Source: a virus
IMG/VR virus record: IMGVR_UViG_3300026278_000067
Span: 1 to 20,155 of that record
Reading direction: 5' to 3' (one strand)
DNA: 20,155 nucleotides
Position 1 is the stretch's first letter. Each line of letters begins with the position of its first letter. The notes under the pieces are model-generated. The model made no database searches, had not been told where the DNA came from, and saw only the letters and a list, made by a program, of their open reading frames with translations. Positions 7,432-19,487 of this stretch are shown here, piece after piece. The translations under genes were made by a program, and so were the position numbers.

Positions 7432-8450
7432 TGGAACGCATGCTCACCACATACTCGTTCTGGAACTCGTTCCGCAATTGCCGGAAGGCATGCGAGTGGC
7501 GGTATCTGAGGGAACTGGTCCCCGCGCAGCGGGAACAGGCACTCTCATTCGGAACGCTGATCCACACGTGCCTTGAGATGTGGCATGGCGGCAGCGGTCT
7601 GGACGCAGTGCTCGACCTCATCGGCAGAGCGCTGCCGAACAGGTCGCAGGACGAGTCTCAGAAGTCGGACTGGCACCTCGCCAGGGCGATGATGGCAGGC
7701 TATACCTCGCGCTATGGGGTCGAGGACTTCGAGGTTATCGCACTTGAGAAGACCTTCGAGGGCAGGATCATAAACCCCGCGACCGGCGCGTGCTCTCGGA
7801 GCCTGACCATAGCGGGCAAGGTCGACGGCATAGTTCGCCGTGGCCGGGAGCACTACATCCTGGAGCACAAGACAGCTTCTCAGGTCGACGCTGACTACCT
7901 TGAGAAGCTCTGGACCGACCTGCAGATCACGCTGTACGCGCATTACGTCGAGCAGACCCTCGGCATCAAGATCGCCGGCGTCATCTACAACGTGCTCGTC
8001 AAAGCTAAGCTCCAGCAGGGCAAGGGCGAGACGGAAGCCGAGTTCGAATCCCGCCGCGCGGAGCTTCTGGCGAAGTCCAAGACCGGCAAGTCTTCCGCCA
8101 CTCGGAAGCTGCCGGAGTCGGACGAGGACTTCCAGGCTAGGCTCGCAGCCAAGTATTCCGAGCCGGAGATGCTCCACAGGGAGATGCTCTACATATCCCG
8201 CGACCAGTTCGAGGCCATGAAGAGCGACCTCTGGGAGCTCACCCAGCAGTTCCTGGATTGCAGGCGTCGAGACGCGTTCTACCGGAATACATTCTACTGC
8301 TTCGCCAACCATCGGACGTGCGCATACTTCCCGCTGTGCCGGTCAAACGGCAGTGAGAACGTGATCGCCAACTTTTATGAGACGAAACCACCGCACGAGG
8401 AGCTGCGGTCGGATTCCGAGATACCAACCGCCCACAAGGAGGCATTCTGA
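7431..8450 (+). CDS. PD-(D/E)XK nuclease, RecB/Cas4-like, with probable Fe-S cluster
   Basis: This 339-residue protein carries the RecB-family nuclease motifs: GTLIHTCLE with His45, the active-site Asp132 in GKVDGIV, and Glu145-x-Lys147 in ILEHKTA. Further on is QITLYAHYVEQ (Gln165-Tyr169), the usual QxxxY motif. Cys21 near the N-terminus and Cys290, Cys297 and Cys303 near the C-terminus are placed like the 4Fe-4S ligands of AddB and Cas4 enzymes. It probably resects DNA ends to feed the recombination ATPase encoded next. The ATG at 7431 overlaps the upstream stop by one base, and its own stop overlaps the next ATG the same way. The longer frame to 7356 lies inside the upstream gene and is not used. 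Confidence 0.88.
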   Translation: MERMLTTYSFWNSFRNCRKACEWRYLRELVPAQREQALSFGTLIHTCLEMWHGGSGLDAVLDLIGRALPNRSQDESQKSDWHLARAMMAGYTSRYGVEDFEVIALEKTFEGRIINPATGACSRSLTIAGKVDGIVRRGREHYILEHKTASQVDADYLEKLWTDLQITLYAHYVEQTLGIKIAGVIYNVLVKAKLQQGKGETEAEFESRRAELLAKSKTGKSSATRKLPESDEDFQARLAAKYSEPEMLHREMLYISRDQFEAMKSDLWELTQQFLDCRRRDAFYRNTFYCFANHRTCAYFPLCRSNGSENVIANFYETKPPHEELRSDSEIPTAHKEAF

Positions 8451-10243
8451 TGTTACTTCCAACCCAGAAGACACCGCCGAAGCCCAACCTGTCCGACCTG
8501 ACGGTTTTGGTCTACGGCGCAACAAAGATAGGAAAGTGCCTGAAAGGTGACACCACGATCATCGACCCAGGCACCGGCCGACCCCACACAATTCGTGAGG
8601 TTGTGGAATCACAGGCAGGATCAGTTCACACATTGGCTGCGGCCGGATGCATTGTCGAAGCCGAGCCGAGTGCGTATATGTGCAACGAACCGGACCAACT
8701 GTTCAAGTTGACCACCCAGACCGGCCGCACCATCGAGGCAACCGCGAATCATCCGTTTCTGACAAGAGATGGATGGAAGTCTCTTTCGGAGCTTCGAGAG
8801 TGTGACAGAGTCGCCGTGGTCGCGGAACACCCGAGTCTATACGGCTGCACGCGCACAGATGACGACCTGCTTACTATTCTCGCATATCTACTTGCTGATG
8901 GATCCCTCAATGAGAGCGGATCTCCTGTATTCACTAAGCTTGACCCCGAGGTCCGTCTTGACTTCGAGGCAGCGGTAGAAAGACACGGGGACGAGTGTGT
9001 CGAGTACGACAACTCCAGGGGCATAACGCATGTTCGTGTGCGAGGCAAGGGCGGTTCCCCAAACAACGTGATCACATTCCTGAAGGAATATGGCCTGCAG
9101 GGATTGCGCGCACCTGACAAGTTCATCCCTGAATTCGTGTTCGGATTGAAGAAACCGAAGCTCGCTCTGTTTCTGAACAAGCTGTTCTCCTGCGACGGCA
9201 GCATGGAGGCGACGGGCAGGGTCAGCTACAGCTCGACGTCGATCAGAATGGTTCGCCAAGTCCAGCACTTGCTACTCCGTTTTGGAATCGTGTCGCTGAT
9301 TCGCAACAGATTCCTGGACGGTGAACTCTACGGCGCTGAGCTTCTTGTCGCAAGCAAAAACGATGTAGTCAAGTTCATTGATGAGATCGGGTTCACCGGC
9401 GAGAAAGCAGTCAAGGCTGAAACCGTCCGAGCCGCTCTCTACAATGTCCGAGCGAACCCCACGCGGCTGGATCGTACGGGTGCCATCCTGTTCGACAGAA
9501 TACGAAGCATCGAACCCACGACGGTTGAGCCAGTATATGATCTGACCGTTCCGGATACTCACAATTTCATTGCCAATGACTTCGTGGTGCACAACTCTAC
9601 CTGGTGTTCCCACGCTGACCGCGCGCTGTTCCTCTCGACCGAGCCTGGCTTGAACTCCCTGGAGGTATTCCAGGTTCCGATTCGGTCGTGGGACGAGTTG
9701 CTGGCCGCCTGCGGGGAGATCGCCGAAGGCAATCACGAGTTCAAGACCGTGATTCTCGACACCGTTGACAACGCCTATCGCATGTGCGCCGAGCACGTCT
9801 GCCGTAAGTTCAAGATCGAGCACGAGTCGGATCTGGGCTACGGCAAGGGCTTCGCTCTCACCAACAACGAGTTCCAGCGCGTCCTGAACAAGCTTGCGTT
9901 CATGCCCTGCGGCTTGTATCTCATCTCCCATTCGCAAGACGTGGAGATGGAGACTCGCACCGGCAAGTATACGAAGACTGTGCCCACCCTGCCGGAGAAG
10001 GCCAGAAAGATCGTTCTCGGCCTCGTTGACATGGTTCTCTACTGTGACATTGAGACGGCTGCGGGGCCTGACGGCAAGACGGCCGCACGTCGTGTCATGC
10101 GCACCAAGCCCAGCCTGAACTACGAAGCGGGTGACCGCACCGGCAAGCTCCCCGAAGTGATCGACCTCGACTACGCCAAGTTCGCCGAGGCGTTCAGCGC
10201 CACGGCCGACACCAAGAAAGCACCCAAGGAGGCAACCCGATGA
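8450..10243 (+). CDS. Sak4-like recombination ATPase (AAA_24) containing an intein
   Basis: The precursor has 597 residues, and splicing would leave a 244-residue RecA-fold ATPase. The Walker A motif is split: GATKIGK ends at residue 29 and the Ser-Thr follows the intein at 383-384. After that come ALFLSTEPGLNSLEVF and the Walker B strand FKTVILDTVD (Asp437), then YLISHSQDVEMETR. This is the AAA_24/Sak4 pattern; Sak4 proteins are RecA-like single-strand-annealing ATPases of phages and usually act with a single-strand-binding partner. The next gene, of the DUF669 family, fits that role. The ATG at 8450 has AAGGAGG upstream. The enzyme should be inactive until the intein is removed, because the intein interrupts the phosphate-binding loop. 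Confidence 0.87.
   Translation: MLLPTQKTPPKPNLSDLTVLVYGATKIGKCLKGDTTIIDPGTGRPHTIREVVESQAGSVHTLAAAGCIVEAEPSAYMCNEPDQLFKLTTQTGRTIEATANHPFLTRDGWKSLSELRECDRVAVVAEHPSLYGCTRTDDDLLTILAYLLADGSLNESGSPVFTKLDPEVRLDFEAAVERHGDECVEYDNSRGITHVRVRGKGGSPNNVITFLKEYGLQGLRAPDKFIPEFVFGLKKPKLALFLNKLFSCDGSMEATGRVSYSSTSIRMVRQVQHLLLRFGIVSLIRNRFLDGELYGAELLVASKNDVVKFIDEIGFTGEKAVKAETVRAALYNVRANPTRLDRTGAILFDRIRSIEPTTVEPVYDLTVPDTHNFIANDFVVHNSTWCSHADRALFLSTEPGLNSLEVFQVPIRSWDELLAACGEIAEGNHEFKTVILDTVDNAYRMCAEHVCRKFKIEHESDLGYGKGFALTNNEFQRVLNKLAFMPCGLYLISHSQDVEMETRTGKYTKTVPTLPEKARKIVLGLVDMVLYCDIETAAGPDGKTAARRVMRTKPSLNYEAGDRTGKLPEVIDLDYAKFAEAFSATADTKKAPKEATR
8537..9595 (+). mobile_element. Intein with LAGLIDADG endonuclease in the Sak4-like gene
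   Basis: This segment encodes 353 residues, from Cys30 to Asn382 of the precursor, followed by Ser383 as the +1 residue. Splicing motifs are block A (CLKGDTTIID), block B (TANHPFLT with His101), block F (VYDLTVPDTHNFIA) and block G (VVHN). Two LAGLIDADG helices are visible, LAYLLADGSL (Asp150) and LFSCDGS (Asp249), so the homing endonuclease looks intact. The insertion lies between Lys and Ser of the Walker A motif GxxxxGKS, a conserved site often used by inteins. The open reading frame is uninterrupted. Confidence 0.93.
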
Positions 10244-10707: not shown

Positions 10708-11238
10708 ATGGCCGAACTCGTCACGGTCGTAGTCGATACGCGCGAACAGGAGCCGTATTCGTTTCCTCCTCAACGGTTCCTCGTCGAGCGGCGTGCTCTA
10801 CCGGCGGGGGACTATTCCCTCGCCGGTCTGGAGCACGTAGTCGCCGTCGAGCGGAAGACGACCGAGGACTTCGTCCACACGGTCATCCGCGACAGAGACC
10901 GTTTTCGCAAGGAGCTTCTGAAGCTCGCCGAATACGACCGCGCCTGCGTAGTAGTGGAAGCCGGACTGGATGATCTCTTGAGTGGAGCCTATCGTTCCGG
11001 CGCTCATCCGAGTTCAGTCGTGGGGGCCGCGCTCTCGATCATTGTCGACTACGGCATCCCAGTCTATTTCTGCTCTGACCGGCAGTGCGCGCGCCGGTTC
11101 GTTGAAGAGTATCTGCTGCGCTACCATCGGAGGGCTCAGGATTCATGGCAACAGCAACAACCCAGCACACCCGAATCCGGGGAGAGGTCGAGCGAGTTTT
11201 CTTCTCGTCCGCCGACTTCTCAGCCGGACGGTTCATAA
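10708..11238 (+). CDS. ERCC4-type nuclease
   Basis: This 176-residue protein has the ERCC4/XPF nuclease motifs. They are VVDTREQEPY (Asp10 to Glu13), LPAGDYSLAG (Asp35) and VERKTTEDF, the ERKxxxD motif, with Glu48, Lys50 and Asp54. It should cut branched or flapped DNA, for example recombination intermediates. The helix-hairpin-helix domain of larger relatives is missing. The ATG directly follows the TAG of the DUF669 gene, and the SD is weak. The last 31 or so residues are rich in Gln, Ser and Pro. They coincide with the 94-base overlap with the start of the helicase gene and are probably disordered. Confidence 0.9.
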   Translation: MAELVTVVVDTREQEPYSFPPQRFLVERRALPAGDYSLAGLEHVVAVERKTTEDFVHTVIRDRDRFRKELLKLAEYDRACVVVEAGLDDLLSGAYRSGAHPSSVVGAALSIIVDYGIPVYFCSDRQCARRFVEEYLLRYHRRAQDSWQQQQPSTPESGERSSEFSSRPPTSQPDGS

Positions 11239-14200
11239 CGGAGCGCGGCGACCGGATACAGTTTGCCGGAAATGTGGTGGTTCAGGAGAACCAGCCGCTC
11301 GTGCTCCATGGCAAGTTCATCAAGCACCCAAAGTATGGCTTCCAGTTCGAGGTCGCGAGCATGGAGTTCGACCGACAGATGGACGCCCGCGGGCTCGCCA
11401 ACTACCTTGCGAACAATCCCGATATCAAAGGCATCGGCCCGGCAAAGGCCAGAATCATTGCCGAGCGGTTTGGCTCCGATTTCGAGCAGTACCTGATCGA
11501 CGAGCCAGAAAAGATCGCGGATGCAGCGAAAGTGCCGATCTCCGTTATCGAGGCTCTTCGTGATCATTGGCTCGAAACGAGCAATGTGAACCAGGCCACG
11601 ACGGCGCTTGCCGCGTACGGGCTGACACATCATCAGGTAACGAAGCTGGTGAAGAAGCTTGGCAACAATGCGGTCGGCATCATCGAACGCGATCCGTATG
11701 TGATCGTCGGTCAGATCGATGGATTCGGCTTCAAGCGGATCGACAAGATAGCTCGGCAGGTGGGCGTCGCCAAGGACGAGCCAAGCCGCGTTCGCGCTGG
11801 GATTCTGTTCTGCGTCGATGATGCCCTCGACCAGGGCGACTGCTGGGTGGAATACGAAGACCTGCTCGACCGGGCCAACGAGTTGCTCGTGATGGACTGC
11901 CTGGACAGCCGAGAGCGGATCGAAAAGCACCTCGATGATCTTATCGACGAGAAAGTTCTGAGCTGCTACTCAGCCGACTGCCGGTTTCTTGTGGCCAAGC
12001 CGTTCATCCGGCAGATGGAGGAGGATCTGGCACGGGTGTTCGCTGGTGGCACGAAACTCAGCCCTTGCTTTGGTGACAAGTCCGACCTGCGGGCGAAGGT
12101 TAGGCGTTTCGCACCCCGCCTCAATCCCAGGCAGACTGAGGCTGCCGTTAACGCCGCCGCGCATTCCATATCGCTTATCTCCGGCGGGGCGGGATCCGGA
12201 AAGACATTCACCATAGCCGCGATAACCCGGCTCTGCGACGAGCACGATCTGGGGGTCGTGCTTTGCGCTCCAACCGGCAAAGCCGCGAAGCGTATTGAGG
12301 AAGCCACCGGTCGGGAAGCGTCAACGATTCACAGGCTGCTCGGTTTCAACGGCAAGACCTACGCTCGCGACTCGCAGAATCCTATCTCGGCAGACGTGGT
12401 AGTCGTGGACGAGTGCTTCGATTACAACCAGTGTGTCCTCACGGAGTACGGATGGGACTACATTGGACGGGTTGTGAACCAACGCAAGGACGTCAGGGTC
12501 TGGTCGCGTGACCCCGAAACCGGACTACTGCAGCTCAGGCCGATCATCCGTTGGCTGAAGCATCCCGCGCCTGATAGGTTACTCAAGATAACAGCCGGTC
12601 GGTCCCGGAGCACGCGTCACGCACGGGTCATTCGATGCACGCCGGACCACAAGATACTTACTCCCTACGGATACCGCCGAGCCAGTGACCTGAGGATAGG
12701 AGAGGAGATAGTTGTTCGCGGGCATCGATTCACACCTGAGCAACGTTCCATCCTCGTCGGCAGCTTGCTGGGAGACGCGGGGCTCTACAGAGGAGAAGCC
12801 AGGAGCAGCCCACAGGTTGTCCTCGTCCACGGAGAAAAGCAGTCCGACTACCTCGATTTCAAGCGGAAAGCCTTTGGGACTTTGGCAGGGAAGGTTCGAG
12901 CGTCCAAATCCGGCTATTCGGGTGATGATGTCCTGCACATGTCGCTCGCAGTCAACGATGAGACCTACGATATCTCGAAGGAGATGGTACTGAACGGCAA
13001 GCACCCCTCCGGCAGGCGCAGATGGTCTCCTACGAACCGGTTTCTGGAAATGGTTGATGAGCTTGCTTTGGCGATATGGTACTTCGACAACGGCTCCTCT
13101 GGAGAACGGACGCTCAAGGATGGAACCAAGCGGTATTCCGCCACTCTCCACACTCAGAGATTCAGTAAGGCCGACCTCTATCGGATCGCCGAGTTTCTCA
13201 ACATCCGTTTCGGACTATCCCCATCGGTGCGCCCTGATTCCCGTGGGTATTGGATACTCGTTTTCAACACGGAGGAAACTGAGAAGCTGTTCGATATCAT
13301 ACGTCCCTATACCCCGGCGTGCATGAGCAGGAAGATCGATACGGACGGACGCTACTCATACCAGCCCTCGGTCGAACAAGACACCTGCGTAGCTCGGATA
13401 CAAGAGATTGAGCAGTGCGAACCATCTCAGGCTCACGTCTATGACATCGAGGTCGCCGATTTCCACAACTACGTGGCCGGGAACATCATCGTATCCAACT
13501 GCTCGATGATCGACGTTCCGCTCGCGTGGCAGTTGTTCCACTCAATCGATCTTGACCGCACGGCTGTAGTCCTCGTAGGCGACCACAATCAGCTTCCGCC
13601 GGTCGGCCCGGGCAACATCCTGCGAGACTTGATCGAATCGAGGGCACTGCCGACCACCATTCTCGATGACATAGTGCGCCAGGCCGGGATTCTCAAGGAG
13701 AACAGCATGGCGATCCTCAAGGGCGAGGTGCCGAAGACTCCTCAACGCGATACCTCGGCGCGGGGGGCGTGGTATGTCGCTGACCAGCACACCGATCCGG
13801 AACGGGTCCAGCGGTTCATATTCGACCTGTTCGAGCACACGCTCAGTGAGAAACTGGGCTTTGACATCCTGCGAGACGTGCAGCTTCTAACTCCCACGCA
13901 CAAGGGCCCGCTCGGCACGGTCGAATTGAACACCAGGCTGCAGCGCCTCATCCAGCAGAAGCTGTGGAACTACGACGCGCCGCCCATTCAGCCTGGCAGG
14001 CGTCCGAAGCTGCTCATCAATGACAAGGTCATTCAGACCCGAAACAACTACGACCTCGGGGTTATGAACGGCGCGATGGGGATTGTGCGCAGCGTTGGTA
14101 TCGACGGGTCGATCAGCATCGAGTTCGAGGACAAGATGGTCCATATCGAGGCCGGTTCGCCGCACCGCAGTGATATCCAACTCGCCTACGCGCTCACCAT

Positions 14201-14441
14201 TCACAAGTCCCAGGGCTCGGAGTTTCCGTGCTCAATTGTGATCGCGCACAAGTCGCACAGCTTCATGCACCATCGCAACCTGCTCTATACCGGCGTCACG
14301 CGCGCCTCTCAGACCGCCATCATCGTCGGCGATCACTGGGGTATCACCAACTGCGCCAAGCGCGTGCAGGTGGATGCGCGAAAGACGCTCCTCTCACTTA
14401 TCCTGCCGTGCCTGTCATCGGAGGTGAAGGTTGAACGTTGA
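11145..14441 (+). CDS. recD2: RecD2-type SF1 helicase containing an intein
   Basis: The precursor has 1098 residues. Removing the 362-residue intein leaves 736, close to the usual RecD2 size. An OB-like N-terminal domain (about 8-75) precedes helix-hairpin-helix segments (NPDIKGIGPAKARIIAERFG, then DGFGFKRIDKIA). Walker A is SGGAGSGKT (346-354), followed by APTGKAAKRIEE and STIHRLLG. Motif II VVVDE (419-423) is continued by CSMID after the intein. Later come VGDHNQLPPVG, ALTIHKSQGSEF and LYTGVTRA (1047-1054). It unwinds DNA 5'-3', supporting replication or recombination. The ATG at 11145 has GGAGGG upstream and lies inside the nuclease gene. It overlaps the primase gene by 11 bases. Confidence 0.92.
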   Translation: MATATTQHTRIRGEVERVFFSSADFSAGRFITERGDRIQFAGNVVVQENQPLVLHGKFIKHPKYGFQFEVASMEFDRQMDARGLANYLANNPDIKGIGPAKARIIAERFGSDFEQYLIDEPEKIADAAKVPISVIEALRDHWLETSNVNQATTALAAYGLTHHQVTKLVKKLGNNAVGIIERDPYVIVGQIDGFGFKRIDKIARQVGVAKDEPSRVRAGILFCVDDALDQGDCWVEYEDLLDRANELLVMDCLDSRERIEKHLDDLIDEKVLSCYSADCRFLVAKPFIRQMEEDLARVFAGGTKLSPCFGDKSDLRAKVRRFAPRLNPRQTEAAVNAAAHSISLISGGAGSGKTFTIAAITRLCDEHDLGVVLCAPTGKAAKRIEEATGREASTIHRLLGFNGKTYARDSQNPISADVVVVDECFDYNQCVLTEYGWDYIGRVVNQRKDVRVWSRDPETGLLQLRPIIRWLKHPAPDRLLKITAGRSRSTRHARVIRCTPDHKILTPYGYRRASDLRIGEEIVVRGHRFTPEQRSILVGSLLGDAGLYRGEARSSPQVVLVHGEKQSDYLDFKRKAFGTLAGKVRASKSGYSGDDVLHMSLAVNDETYDISKEMVLNGKHPSGRRRWSPTNRFLEMVDELALAIWYFDNGSSGERTLKDGTKRYSATLHTQRFSKADLYRIAEFLNIRFGLSPSVRPDSRGYWILVFNTEETEKLFDIIRPYTPACMSRKIDTDGRYSYQPSVEQDTCVARIQEIEQCEPSQAHVYDIEVADFHNYVAGNIIVSNCSMIDVPLAWQLFHSIDLDRTAVVLVGDHNQLPPVGPGNILRDLIESRALPTTILDDIVRQAGILKENSMAILKGEVPKTPQRDTSARGAWYVADQHTDPERVQRFIFDLFEHTLSEKLGFDILRDVQLLTPTHKGPLGTVELNTRLQRLIQQKLWNYDAPPIQPGRRPKLLINDKVIQTRNNYDLGVMNGAMGIVRSVGIDGSISIEFEDKMVHIEAGSPHRSDIQLAYALTIHKSQGSEFPCSIVIAHKSHSFMHHRNLLYTGVTRASQTAIIVGDHWGITNCAKRVQVDARKTLLSLILPCLSSEVKVER
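12414..13499 (+). mobile_element. Intein with LAGLIDADG endonuclease in the RecD2 gene
   Basis: This segment encodes 362 residues, Cys424 to Asn785 of the precursor, with Cys786 as the +1 residue. Block A is CFDYNQCVLTEYGW, block B is RCTPDHKILT (His502), and block F is VYDIEVADFHNYVAG. The C-terminus reads IIVSN, so the usual penultimate His is Ser784. LAGLIDADG-type helices are LVGSLLGDAGL (Asp544) and LAIWYFDNGSS (Asp648). The insertion falls immediately after Asp-Glu of the DExx box, so the helicase depends on splicing for ATP hydrolysis. The reading frame is intact. Confidence 0.93.
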
Positions 14442-16875
14442 CCAGGTAGTCGCTCACTTCCCGGGCGCAAAGAAGACGTCCAACGGCTGGCAGGCGAAGT
14501 GTCCCGCCCACGATGACAAAGTGGCGTCGCTCTCGATTCACCTCGAAGAGGACGGCAAGGTTCTGCTGCACTGTCATGCTGGATGCGAGCCGGAGGTAGT
14601 GCTGCGCGCGGTCGGACTCAAGATGTCCGATCTATTCCCAGATACTGGGATAGCCCCCGGGCGCGGGGCTGGTCGTGGCAACAAGAAGAGGAAGCAGCCT
14701 CCGTCCGACTCCGTGATCGTCGCCGAATACGACTACCGAGATGAATCAGGGGCATTCCTTTTTCAGGTTGTTCGGTTCGATCCAAAGGATTTCCGGTGCA
14801 GGCGGCGTGCCGTGACCTCAACCAGCGCAGGTTGGACCTGGAACATGGATGGTGTCCGCAAGGTCATCTACCGGCTACCCGAAGTGATGGCAGCCGTTGC
14901 CAGTGGCAAGCCGCTATTCGTCGTCGAGGGCGAGAAGGATGTCCACACGCTTGAGCGCCTGGGGCTTGTTGCGACCTGTAACCCGGGCGGCGCGGGCAAG
15001 TGGGTAAAGGCATTCGCGCCTTCTCTTCGAGAGGCGGATGTCGTCATCTTGCCGGACAACGATCCTCCCGGTCGCAATCACGCCGAGACTGTCGCCAAGA
15101 CTCTGAAGGAGCATGCCAAACAGATTCGGGTGGTTAGGCTGCCTGGTCTTCCTCCCAAGGGCGATGTGACCGATTGGGTCGAGTCCGGCGGCACGGTTGA
15201 GGAGCTTCTCAAGCTGGCGGATTCCGCGACGGACTGGGAACCTGCCCCAGAAGTCGAGGTAACACTCGGCATTGACGGCGAGCCGCTCAATGACCTCGGC
15301 AATGCGCGCCGCTTGGTCAAGAAGCACGGGGACTCCATCCGGTTCTGCTATGACGCCGGCAAATGGTACAACTGGGACGGCAGGCGTTGGGGCAGAGACG
15401 AGACCGGTGATATAGTCCGCAAGGCCAAGGAAGTCGTTGACGCGATGTATGCTCAGGCTCTTGCCGCGAAGAAGAAAGCGGAAGCCGAGGCCGATGACGA
15501 AGCCCTGGAAGCCGCCAAGACCTTCGAACGCCACGCGATAACATCCGGCAATCACCGGCGCATAATGGCGATGATCTCGCAAGCGGAGTCGGAACCCGTC
15601 GTGCCCATACTGGCGAACGAACTGGATAGGAACGGCTGGCTTTTCAACTGCGCCAACGGCACGATTGATCTTGTGACTGGCCAGCTTCGGCCACACAACC
15701 GCTCGGACCTGATATCGATGATTAGCCCAATCGCCTACGATCCTTGTGCGAAGTGTCCGACCTGGGAGCGGTTCCTGCGAGAGGTATTCCAGGACGATGA
15801 GGAACTGATTCGGTTCGTCCACGCGGCCTCCGGCTACACACTCACAGGTGATACGCGCGAGCAGGTATTCTTCATCCTGCACGGCTGCGGGTCAAACGGC
15901 AAGTCCACATTCATAATGGCGCTGCGGGATATCTTCGGTGACTACGAGACCAAGACCTCGACCGATACGCTCATCGAGAAGAACTCCAACAACACGAACG
16001 ACATCGCGGCTCTTCGGGGATCGCGGTTCGTCAACGCAATTGAGACAAGCGCGGGCAAGCGTCTGGCCGAGGCCCTGGTCAAGGAGTTGACCGGGCAGGA
16101 CGCCATCAGCGCACGCTTCCTCTACCAGGAGTTCTTCACATTCGTTCCGGTGTTCAAGCTGTGGCTCGCGTGCAACCACGTGCCGGTGATCCAGGGTCAG
16201 GATCACGGAATCTGGCGGCGAGTGAGGCTCGTGCCGTTCGGTGTTCAGTTCCGAGAGCCAGAGGAGACAGTTGGTCCCTATAAGGACAAGTCGCTGCCTG
16301 AGAAGCTGAGGGCCGAATACGAAGGCATACTCGCCTGGCTTGTACGCGGCTGCCTCGACTGGCAGAAGGGCGGACTGCCGACAGCCAATGCCGTCAGATC
16401 AGCAACGGGCAAGCTGCAGCAGGATATGGACGTCCTTGGCGGATTCCTCACCGAGTGCTGTGTGTTCGACCGCAGGGCCCATGTGTCGGCGAAGGACCTC
16501 TACTCAGCCTACTGCCAGTGGGCTGAGCGCAACGGCGAGAAGCCTCTTTCACAGCGGTGGTTCGGCCTGCGGCTTTCGGAGCGCGGTACCTGCGAGAGCT
16601 TTAGGAACAGGACGACCAGGTACTGGCATGGGATCGGCCTGCTGTCCCAGCACAGTCTCGATGAGCCGTCAGACGGTGTGACGCATGTGACGGATGTGAC
16701 GCTATCTCCCCAGGAGTTTCCTCCATGCGCGCGCGAGGATGATGTCAGCGCAAGTATAGACATGAAAGGCTCAATAGGATCTTCTGGGCATGTAGCGTCA
16801 CAAGAGTCACAAGCGTCACAGCCTGAACCGGCGAATGGCGACGGTCTCGACTGGTCGAATGGGGTGGCGTTCTGA
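14431..16875 (+). CDS. Primase/SF3 helicase (CHC2 zinc finger, TOPRIM, D5/P4-type helicase)
   Basis: This 814-residue replication protein joins primase and helicase functions. A CHC2-like zinc finger uses Cys24, His27, Cys48 and Cys52 (KCPAHDDK and LLHCHAGC). The TOPRIM-like part has VVEGEKD (Glu166) and ILPDNDPPG (Asp209, Asp211). The superfamily 3 helicase part has HGCGSNGKST (Walker A, Lys491), RFVNAIETS (Walker B region) and LWLACNHVP (sensor Asn582), as in phage P4 alpha and D5 proteins. It starts with TTG at 14431 behind GGAGG; no closer ATG fits. The C-terminal tail from about residue 748 is low complexity and encodes the iteron array (VTHVTDVTL and ASQESQASQ). Confidence 0.93.
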   Translation: MNVDQVVAHFPGAKKTSNGWQAKCPAHDDKVASLSIHLEEDGKVLLHCHAGCEPEVVLRAVGLKMSDLFPDTGIAPGRGAGRGNKKRKQPPSDSVIVAEYDYRDESGAFLFQVVRFDPKDFRCRRRAVTSTSAGWTWNMDGVRKVIYRLPEVMAAVASGKPLFVVEGEKDVHTLERLGLVATCNPGGAGKWVKAFAPSLREADVVILPDNDPPGRNHAETVAKTLKEHAKQIRVVRLPGLPPKGDVTDWVESGGTVEELLKLADSATDWEPAPEVEVTLGIDGEPLNDLGNARRLVKKHGDSIRFCYDAGKWYNWDGRRWGRDETGDIVRKAKEVVDAMYAQALAAKKKAEAEADDEALEAAKTFERHAITSGNHRRIMAMISQAESEPVVPILANELDRNGWLFNCANGTIDLVTGQLRPHNRSDLISMISPIAYDPCAKCPTWERFLREVFQDDEELIRFVHAASGYTLTGDTREQVFFILHGCGSNGKSTFIMALRDIFGDYETKTSTDTLIEKNSNNTNDIAALRGSRFVNAIETSAGKRLAEALVKELTGQDAISARFLYQEFFTFVPVFKLWLACNHVPVIQGQDHGIWRRVRLVPFGVQFREPEETVGPYKDKSLPEKLRAEYEGILAWLVRGCLDWQKGGLPTANAVRSATGKLQQDMDVLGGFLTECCVFDRRAHVSAKDLYSAYCQWAERNGEKPLSQRWFGLRLSERGTCESFRNRTTRYWHGIGLLSQHSLDEPSDGVTHVTDVTLSPQEFPPCAREDDVSASIDMKGSIGSSGHVASQESQASQPEPANGDGLDWSNGVAF
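16677..16820. repeat. Inverted iteron array, candidate replication origin
   Basis: Three tandem 9-bp units lie at 16677-16703 (TGTGACGCA, TGTGACGGA, TGTGACGCT). Three more, in reverse orientation, lie at 16794-16820 (AGCGTCACA, AGAGTCACA, AGCGTCACA). The arms are separated by 90 bases whose right half is comparatively AT-rich. All six share the TGTGAC core. The array lies within the 3' end of the primase/helicase gene. P4-type initiator proteins bind short iterons at their origins, so an origin or initiator-binding site is likely by analogy. Confidence 0.7.
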
Positions 16876-17813
16876 TGGGATGCTTAGACACTCTCAATCG
16901 CCGTGGAATCCGAGCAAGCATTCGCGGGGGCAACATGCTCTGGCTTGACCCGCAGTATCTGGTCTCGCCAGATATCGCCGAGATCGTGCGCTCGCACAAG
17001 GACGATATCCTGGGTGAGATTCGTGCTTCGGCAGCAGGTATATCGGACGATCCTTCGGAGATCGTCCCCGACTACCACTTTCTGTGGGTTGCGACCGACC
17101 TCGACTCGTTCGAGGAGTTCGATCCCAGGTTCGGCTATGAGGTCGGCGGTGATCCGGTCTACCGGATGCTTGATGCGCCTTACTATGCCTGGCTCCGACA
17201 TCGCATGGAGAACGTCCGGGCCGCTCACGGATCAGGGCGACTTGATGATCAGACATTCGAGACCCTGAGAACCCGGTTCAACACCATCCATTCCTGGGCG
17301 GTCCGGCATATCGGCAAGGATGCCCTTCGCCGGGCGATCAGGACCACGAATGTGAAGTCGTACGTCCCGCCGTCGGAGATGACGTTCGCCGCCTACCGGA
17401 AGACCTGGGATGATGCCTGGGACGCGTATCAGCGGCGTCGGACTACTGTGAGTCTCGCTGGTCAGTCAGACCAGGCGCGCAGACTTCAGCATCTGCTCGA
17501 TAGCCAGGGCTACGCCGGGATTAGATCATCTATCGTCGAAGACATCGTGGTCTTCGTTCGCGACGATTCGATTGTTGTGCCGCCCAAGTGGACAACCAAG
17601 GTCCGGTTCACTGTGGACGAGTTGAAGCTAATGATTGGCTCGTCCCCCGAGGCTGTGAAACAGGTTTACGAGGTCAAGCGGGTGTTCGGCGGAAAGGTCG
17701 TGCCCGCGGGCGATGATCCGTTTGCGGGCACTGTCCCAGCGGCAAGGCCGACGCCGCTATCGGTTGACCAGCAGTCCTTGCCGATGGCTGCCGTATCCAA
17801 TAGCGCAAAATGA
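16875..17813 (+). CDS. Hypothetical protein with TubC_N-like N-terminus
   Basis: This 312-residue protein follows the primase gene with a one-base overlap (TGATG). Residues 1-50 (LNRRGIRASIRGG, then LWLDPQYLVSPDIAEIV and HKDDILGEIR) resemble the TubC N-terminal docking domain. The pattern is a short helix, a beta hairpin and a final helix with HKxxIL. In phage and integrative-element replication genes such domains probably mediate protein contacts. The rest, with HFLWVATDLDSFEEFD and many Trp/Tyr/Arg residues, is unassigned, and the C-terminus is low complexity. A contact with the primase/helicase is inferred from position only. Confidence 0.75.
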   Translation: MGCLDTLNRRGIRASIRGGNMLWLDPQYLVSPDIAEIVRSHKDDILGEIRASAAGISDDPSEIVPDYHFLWVATDLDSFEEFDPRFGYEVGGDPVYRMLDAPYYAWLRHRMENVRAAHGSGRLDDQTFETLRTRFNTIHSWAVRHIGKDALRRAIRTTNVKSYVPPSEMTFAAYRKTWDDAWDAYQRRRTTVSLAGQSDQARRLQHLLDSQGYAGIRSSIVEDIVVFVRDDSIVVPPKWTTKVRFTVDELKLMIGSSPEAVKQVYEVKRVFGGKVVPAGDDPFAGTVPAARPTPLSVDQQSLPMAAVSNSAK

Positions 17814-18569: not shown

Positions 18570-19487
18570 TCAGATCCGTTCCAGCGCTTCCTCCAGCGCC
18601 TCGTCAGAGAGGTGCGTGTAGATTTCAGTCGTGGATATGTCGCGATGCCCGAGGGCGCGCTTGACCAGGAGCAGATCAGAGGTGGATGCGTAGAGGTGCG
18701 TGGCGAATGTGTGCCGCAGACCGTGCGGCGTGATACTCTTCGCTATCCCGGCTCTACTAAGCCAATACGCCAGTCGCTGAGCGACCTGCCTTGCGCAGAT
18801 CCGGGTTCCGCGAGAAGAAACGAACAGCGCAGTGACGCCAGGGTTTGCCAGGTTACGGCGTTCCTTGAGATAACCTCGCAGGAGCGTGCGCAGCGACGAC
18901 TTAAGGAACTTGACCTGCGGAATGCCGCCCTTACCCTCGATGCGGATGTGCTTGCCGTCGAGGTCAATGTCGTCTATGTCCAGGTTCACCAGTTCGGCAA
19001 TACGGATGCCGGTGCCAAGGAACAGCTCGAAGATAACACGGTCCCGGCGTGCCAGCGGATTGGCGCGGTCGTGCAGTTCCTTGAGCAGCTTGCGCTTCTC
19101 GGCTTCGGTAAGGAACTCCGGAGGCGTTCTCGCCAGTCGCTTCGTGGTGACAAGCTTGGCTGGGTTGGTATCGGTGAGGCCGCGCTCGGTGGTCCACGTG
19201 AAGAACGAGCGGACGGCGGCTTTCAGCCGATGCATTGTCGCGGCGGATTTAGGAACGCCATCGTCGGAACACGCGAGCGCGGGGTCGGTGAGAGCCGCGT
19301 CGATCATCGCAGGCGTGATGTCTCGGACGTCGACCGCGGGCAGCGCTCGAACGAAATAACGTAGATCGCGCAAATACGCGGAGATGGTGTGCTCCGAGCG
19401 ATCCTGCGCCCGGAGCCTTGCCGCGAAGCTGTCTATGGCTTGTTCGAGGTTACTGGTCGGTTGCATCAGCCGGATCGGATTCGGCAT
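18570..19487 (-). CDS. Tyrosine recombinase (XerC/D-like integrase)
   Basis: This 305-residue protein has both domains of XerC/XerD-type recombinases. The SAM-like core-binding domain (about 12-105) contains LRAQDRSEHTISAYLRDLR. The catalytic domain has Arg162 in GTGIRIAELVNL, Lys186 in IEGKGG, His255 and Arg258 in TPHGLRHTFATH, and His281 and the nucleophile Tyr290 in LGHRDISTTEIYTHL. All catalytic residues are present. It may integrate the element, resolve multimers or act at a second site. The ATG at 19487 has GGAGG six bases upstream and overlaps the end of the core-binding-domain gene by 38 bases. Confidence 0.93.
   Translation of the reverse strand: MPNPIRLMQPTSNLEQAIDSFAARLRAQDRSEHTISAYLRDLRYFVRALPAVDVRDITPAMIDAALTDPALACSDDGVPKSAATMHRLKAAVRSFFTWTTERGLTDTNPAKLVTTKRLARTPPEFLTEAEKRKLLKELHDRANPLARRDRVIFELFLGTGIRIAELVNLDIDDIDLDGKHIRIEGKGGIPQVKFLKSSLRTLLRGYLKERRNLANPGVTALFVSSRGTRICARQVAQRLAYWLSRAGIAKSITPHGLRHTFATHLYASTSDLLLVKRALGHRDISTTEIYTHLSDEALEEALERI

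Follow-up and report, generated by a model that had tools for sequence, protein, structure and literature searches.

A temperate phage fragment from IMG/VR carries, in the 3' coding end of its primase-helicase gene, a repeat array that, from sequence comparisons, is very probably the phage's own replication origin, of the SaPI/PICI type and nested in the gene of its initiator. Over the 20,155 nucleotides analysed (the window), three 9-mers with a TGTGAC core and three inverted ones stand around exactly 90 bp. The array, its conservation at the DNA level, its association with helicase 3' ends, the replacement of its iterons between lineages and the translation through it were all observed directly.

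The array and the gene that holds it

In a hexamer count over the 20-kb window, TGTGAC starts at 16677, 16686 and 16695 on the plus strand, and GTCACA starts at 16797, 16806 and 16815. The left arm (16677..16703, +) consists of three 9-bp iterons of the form TGTGACGNW, in the order TGTGACGCA, TGTGACGGA and TGTGACGCT, and is conserved in four related loci (L121, L122, L189, and L190). The right arm (16794..16820, −) consists of three inverted 9-bp iterons with a GTCACA core, in the order AGCGTCACA, AGAGTCACA and AGCGTCACA, and is also conserved in relatives. A sequence-only reading of this DNA had described six TGTGAC-core 9-bp units, three direct and three inverted, with a 90-base spacer, and this description was exact. 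Outside the array, only seven more TGTGAC or GTCACA hexamers were seen in the window, all of them single and none arrayed. The 90-bp spacer (16704..16793), the presumed unwinding region, contains an alternating pyrimidine-purine tract, CATGCGCGCGCG (16724..16735), a Z-DNA-prone run of 12, and the GC content of the array region (16671-16830) is 54%.

Both arms lie within the last 200 nt of an 814-aa open reading frame (14431..16875, +), in which they are translated as VTHVTDVTL (left) and ASQESQASQ (right). Pfam, PHROG, and Foldseek identified the product as a Toprim/zinc-finger primase with a D5-type (SF3/AAA+) helicase, the presumed initiator. The Pfam matches were D5_N (1.6e-35), DUF5906 (1e-8), and Pox_D5 (1e-8), the PHROG match was DNA primase (7e-178), and the Foldseek matches were ASFV PrimPol and MPOX E5. 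Both sequence and fold match those of the D5 helicases of ASFV and poxviruses, and ASFV C962R is among the nearest solved relatives. The best PDB match by profile was 7ola, "DNA primase", which we take to be SaPI5 PriRep1 (SaPI5-type). The protein has the D5_N domain, the SF3/AAA+ core with Walker A, and the C-terminal winged helix of a D5/SF3-type primase-helicase, and the GxGxNGK residues are invariant in the helicase alignment.

The winged helix (codons 16387..16641, +; AlphaFold, Pfam, and alignment) is Pox_D5-like, the Pox_D5 match spanning residues 664-730, and is the presumed iteron-binding domain. In an AlphaFold model of residues 287-814, the chain is ordered and confident up to fragment residue 456 (numbered within the modelled fragment), with the winged helix at the end of this part (helices 401-414 and 422-431, strands 436-451). 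The remaining fragment residues 457-528 (codons 16657..16872, +) form a tail that is predicted to be disordered (pLDDT < 50) and holds the entire array.

The tail ends in the peptide DGLDWSNGVAF (16840..16872, +), which is constant in six relatives except for a single G/S change; most of its codons show synonymous differences. The constancy of this peptide, together with the synonymous changes, indicates that the region past the array is truly translated and is constrained at the protein level. The frame closes with a TGATG stop/start overlap (16873..16877, +) with the downstream gene (16875-17813), and this overlap is kept in L121, L122, L125, L189, and L190. Short acidic-hydrophobic tips resembling SSB-type interaction tails are frequent in helicases with nested arrays (window 16840-16872; L268, L269, and L183), as in DWSNGVAF, DGKEVF, SEVFVW, and GDWVEV.

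The surroundings are, judging from gene content, those of a temperate phage: the window encodes a serine integrase, a LexA/CI-like repressor, a Sak4-like annealing protein, a RecD-like helicase, and an exonuclease, the terminase small subunit match is weak, and the structural genes are not within the 20-kb record. Besides its serine integrase-type recombinase, the fragment encodes a tyrosine integrase (18570-19487 (−) and 405-1826 (−)), and the neighbouring genes for the Sak4-like ATPase and the RecD-like helicase (8450-10243 and 11145-14441) each contain an intein with a LAGLIDADG endonuclease. The GC skew of the window is uninformative, being flat and tracking gene orientation.

Opposed iteron arrays at helicase genes of other viruses

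IMG/VR was scanned with the pattern TGTGACNNNTGTGAC-gap-GTCACANNNGTCACA, which is blind to gene content. Inward arrays were found at 51 loci with gaps of 72-102 and at 65 loci with gaps of 42-72. For comparison with the 51, the reversed-hexamer control gave 3 loci and the outward-facing TGTGAC arrangement 22, the inward and outward TGTGAC scans being the only test of polarity. The control loci (L205:5933-6044, L206:5868-5997, and L207:5231-5356) are themselves inverted arrays of other 9-bp units (TACAGTGTC, TACCCAGTG), so that the control is conservative; they suggest that many more kinds of array of this sort exist than were sampled.

Among 96 distinct inward arrays, a D5-type reading frame was present at 45 loci, and in 40 the array lay within 250 nt of the D5 stop. 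These 40 stop-linked arrays usually stand 2-100 nt past the helicase stop; the window clade is the group in which the array stands about 200 to 50 nt ahead of it. The proteins of the distant relatives stop where the tail of the window protein starts, which indicates that the frame of the window clade has run through the origin. The presence of the same array just past the stop codon in distant relatives supports the proposal of the sequence-only reading that the gene probably carries its own origin.

TGTGAC inverted arrays were also observed about 8-140 nt downstream of non-D5 helicases of the Toprim-AAA_25, VapE-like, and DUF927/Cch types (L137:11038-11158, L146, L149, L158, L161, and L163; L104, L108, and L157; L136), which suggests either a recognition motif common to several helicase families or convergence. 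In Vibrio phage 2.044.O (L202:3054-3127), two annotated "CRISPR spacers" lie about 400 nt behind the D5 primase gene.

Arrays were also sought independently of their motif, with an exact-match finder for two opposed clusters in which some 5-mer, whatever its sequence, recurs every 8-13 bp; the "in" and "out" labels of this finder are meaningless, because an iteron and its complement receive opposite labels. A first sample comprised the window and records picked solely for their protein similarity. Of its 24 records, 9 had five or more units close to the stop codon of the helicase, as against 0 of 622 control windows elsewhere; without the window clade the count was 6 of 17. For Armatimonadota prophage loci, also picked by protein alone, the counts were 9 of 31, as against 1 of 319 control windows. 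The named phages with such arrays include Acidithiobacillus phage AcaML1 (CTGACGGGT) and the Mycobacterium phages Hammy (GTGCC type) and DismalStressor; in AcaML1 and Hammy the predicted origin comes after the helicase gene. With exact matching, no array was found in many D5 phages, phiBT1, BPP-1, and SuMoo among them, or in about half of the Armatimonadota loci. For a contig search, the diversity within a profile built from 18 divergent D5 proteins proved too great.

Comparison of the spacers revealed an alternating run of at least 12 nt in 22 of 41 non-redundant D5-linked spacers, compared to 328 of 14,751 control windows (2.2%) of equal length from the same loci (Fisher 1e-25). Examples are CGTACACGCGCGCGCGCGTA (AcaML1), TACGCGCGCGTA (L279), and TATACGCGCGTGTA, which lies in a spacer of 30% GC (L053). 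The CG run of the window spacer is modest, at 12 nt, and the spacer of L190 has no long CG tract, so that the tract is not universal in the window clade. Alternating pyrimidine-purine tracts are prone to form Z-DNA, and those in the spacers may help melting.

These surveys also bear on the view that the array is an operator, at which a repressor would act or through which the helicase or some other DNA-binding protein would exert autoregulation. Repeated sites near the stop/start overlap could indeed control the downstream gene. However, the array is found at or just behind the helicase 3' end across unrelated phages, an origin accounts better for a pair of opposed arms around a melting-prone spacer, and arrays also stand beside VapE, DUF927, and Toprim-AAA_25 helicases, like the SaPI/PICI origins that have been tested (PMC6092414). 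We therefore regard an operator as improbable.

Selection on the DNA within the coding tail

In relatives (69-82% identical), both arms are present and the iteron codons are frozen, whereas the adjoining tail drifts. Opposed arms lie inside the coding tail in L121, L122, L125, L189, and L190, with the tail between them varying in both length and sequence; L189, the closest relative, sits in an Armatimonadota MAG. In L125, the same GTGAAC-type variant is present in both arms. The one clear exception among the relatives is the pair L183/L184, which have degenerate arrays and a different C-terminus.

In 20,000 trials that left the protein unchanged and drew synonymous codons according to the codon usage of the gene itself, the three-plus-three units never reappeared in the window tail (0/20,000). 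The exact counts of each relative were reproduced 0 (L122), 1 (L121), 7 (L189), and 25 (L190) times per 20,000; for L125 this test is powerless, because its units have changed. Moreover, the serine codon of the right arm is TCA in 15 of 17 cases, compared to a background of 14% in the helicase part (binomial 2e-11, a nominal value that ignores relatedness). The homologue alignment, in which the opposed arms are kept in the coding tail, together with the recoding and TCA results, favours the earlier suggestion that selection acts on the DNA and not on the protein.

Nested arrays were also found with other iterons. L268 carries TGTGAC units, L269 carries TGTAGGGNG (peptides VGSVGCVG and TLTTHPT), L291 carries CGGACGTTT (peptides VSDVSDVSDV and NVRNVQNVQ), and L277, L278, and L287 carry four exact units each, for which the control rate at four or more units is 10 of 319. 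Nested arrays, both those of the window clade and those of further Armatimonadota prophages whose iterons differ, have the winged helix on one side and, on the other, a conserved C-terminal peptide or a zinc ribbon. In L277, L278, and L291, the array, within the last 200 nt of the frame, divides the winged helix from an in-frame, zinc-ribbon-like CxxC...CxxC segment, indicating that the origin acts as an interdomain linker. An iteron swap between lineages alters the protein tail, while geometry and place stay constant.

On a protein-level explanation, the repeats would be a low-complexity linker and the DNA pattern a by-product of repeated peptides, as might be supposed from the predicted disorder of the tail and from the recurrence of VTxVTxVT and SQxSQxSQ in relatives. 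Against this, synonymous recoding rarely reproduces the array, the TCA bias is far above background, the two arms, reverse complements of each other, are translated in different phases, relatives have the same arrays outside genes, and other nested tails combine different peptides with the same DNA geometry. The linker explanation is therefore largely refuted already and very unlikely. It is just as unlikely that the array serves partition (as a centromere-like site), some other form of segregation, or packaging: centromere-like sites also carry iterated short repeats, but the neighbouring genes examined included none for partition, and the constant companion of the array is a helicase.

A proposed mode of initiation and its relation to known origins

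The replication origin that we prefer as the explanation would work like one of the SaPI/PICI type. In SaPI/PICI origins, which lie directly 3' of rep and drive the replication of plasmids, two sets of iterons enclose a presumed melting region (PMC6092414). The window shares with them two short iteron sets around a spacer, associated with a self-loading primase-helicase gene, and a protein whose profile matches 7ola. It differs in that the array lies inside the 3' coding end and not directly 3' of the gene, as it does in most relatives, in that the region is not AT-rich (54% GC, with CATGCGCGCGCG in the spacer), and in that it appears to belong to an ordinary temperate phage. Filing the array as a PICI origin was rejected because a position 3' of the gene and an AT-rich spacer were both looked for and neither was found.

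In SCCmec, the C-terminal domain of Cch2 (D5_N) binds iterons downstream of its gene, and the helicase needs those iterons (PMC7581432). The likeness to the window is a D5_N-type helicase with iterons, in SCCmec directly downstream of the gene (PMC7581432). In SCCmec, AAGTG occurs as three direct repeats within a gap that is non-coding, in contrast to the opposed 9-bp arms within the gene of the window.

The lambda ori lies inside gene O, the initiator's own coding sequence, and the window resembles lambda in having origin iterons within the coding sequence of its own initiator. The iterons of lambdoid O proteins are treated in PMC7466680. O, however, is not a helicase, and the iterons of lambda consist of longer repeats that adjoin an AT-rich region.

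The alpha protein of P4, with which the window was compared by domain matches, is likewise a primase-helicase that binds iterons. The ori and crr sites of P4 are separate from the alpha gene, unlike the nested array of the window. The main interpretation of the sequence-only reading, which had proposed a P4-type initiator, holds, with a refinement of the model. The gene is a Toprim-D5 helicase, and with 7ola and ASFV C962R as its nearest solved relatives, the Rep of SaPI/PICI elements serves better as a model than P4 alpha does.

We propose that the winged-helix domain of the primase-helicase would bind the 9-bp iterons, three in each of two opposed sets, and that one hexamer would assemble on each arm. 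The 90-bp spacer, with its alternating CG tract, would then unwind, and two helicases would depart in opposite directions, with the Toprim domain priming. Loading of two hexamers in this way fits the geometry of the array and the published SaPI and Cch2 work. In most relatives, the origin would occupy the gap just past the helicase stop; in the window clade, the frame appears to run through the origin, to link the helicase with a C-terminal peptide that is short and conserved, and to end in the TGATG overlap, so that the repetitive tail would be translated origin DNA serving as a flexible linker. As a speculation, hinted at by the TGATG overlap, the frame extension kept ribosomes running into the downstream gene.

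More broadly, we see about an even chance that D5-helicase phages share a general origin, in which opposed, lineage-specific 9-bp iteron arms surround a Z-DNA-prone tract that replaces the AT-rich unwinding element, and which several lineages have absorbed into the initiator frame as a translated linker that joins the winged helix to an additional C-terminal module. On the same reading, absorption into the frame would make initiator and origin hard to separate by recombination. What is new here is such a probable origin in a phage, inside the coding sequence of the initiator, and with a Z-prone tract; no published account of an origin nested in this way, or of Z-prone tracts at origins of this kind, was found in a literature search that covered few subscription papers.

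The recurring alternating CG tract raises the question of how a GC-rich origin melts. For many D5-helicase phages and prophages, including uncultured ones, the results provide a simple rule for finding origins, which is to search the surroundings of the helicase gene's 3' end for 9-bp arrays in opposed orientation. An origin design that had been described as unique to phage satellites would now extend to phages, and one stretch of DNA would serve both as replication origin and as protein-coding sequence, in which iteron swaps rewrite the protein tail.
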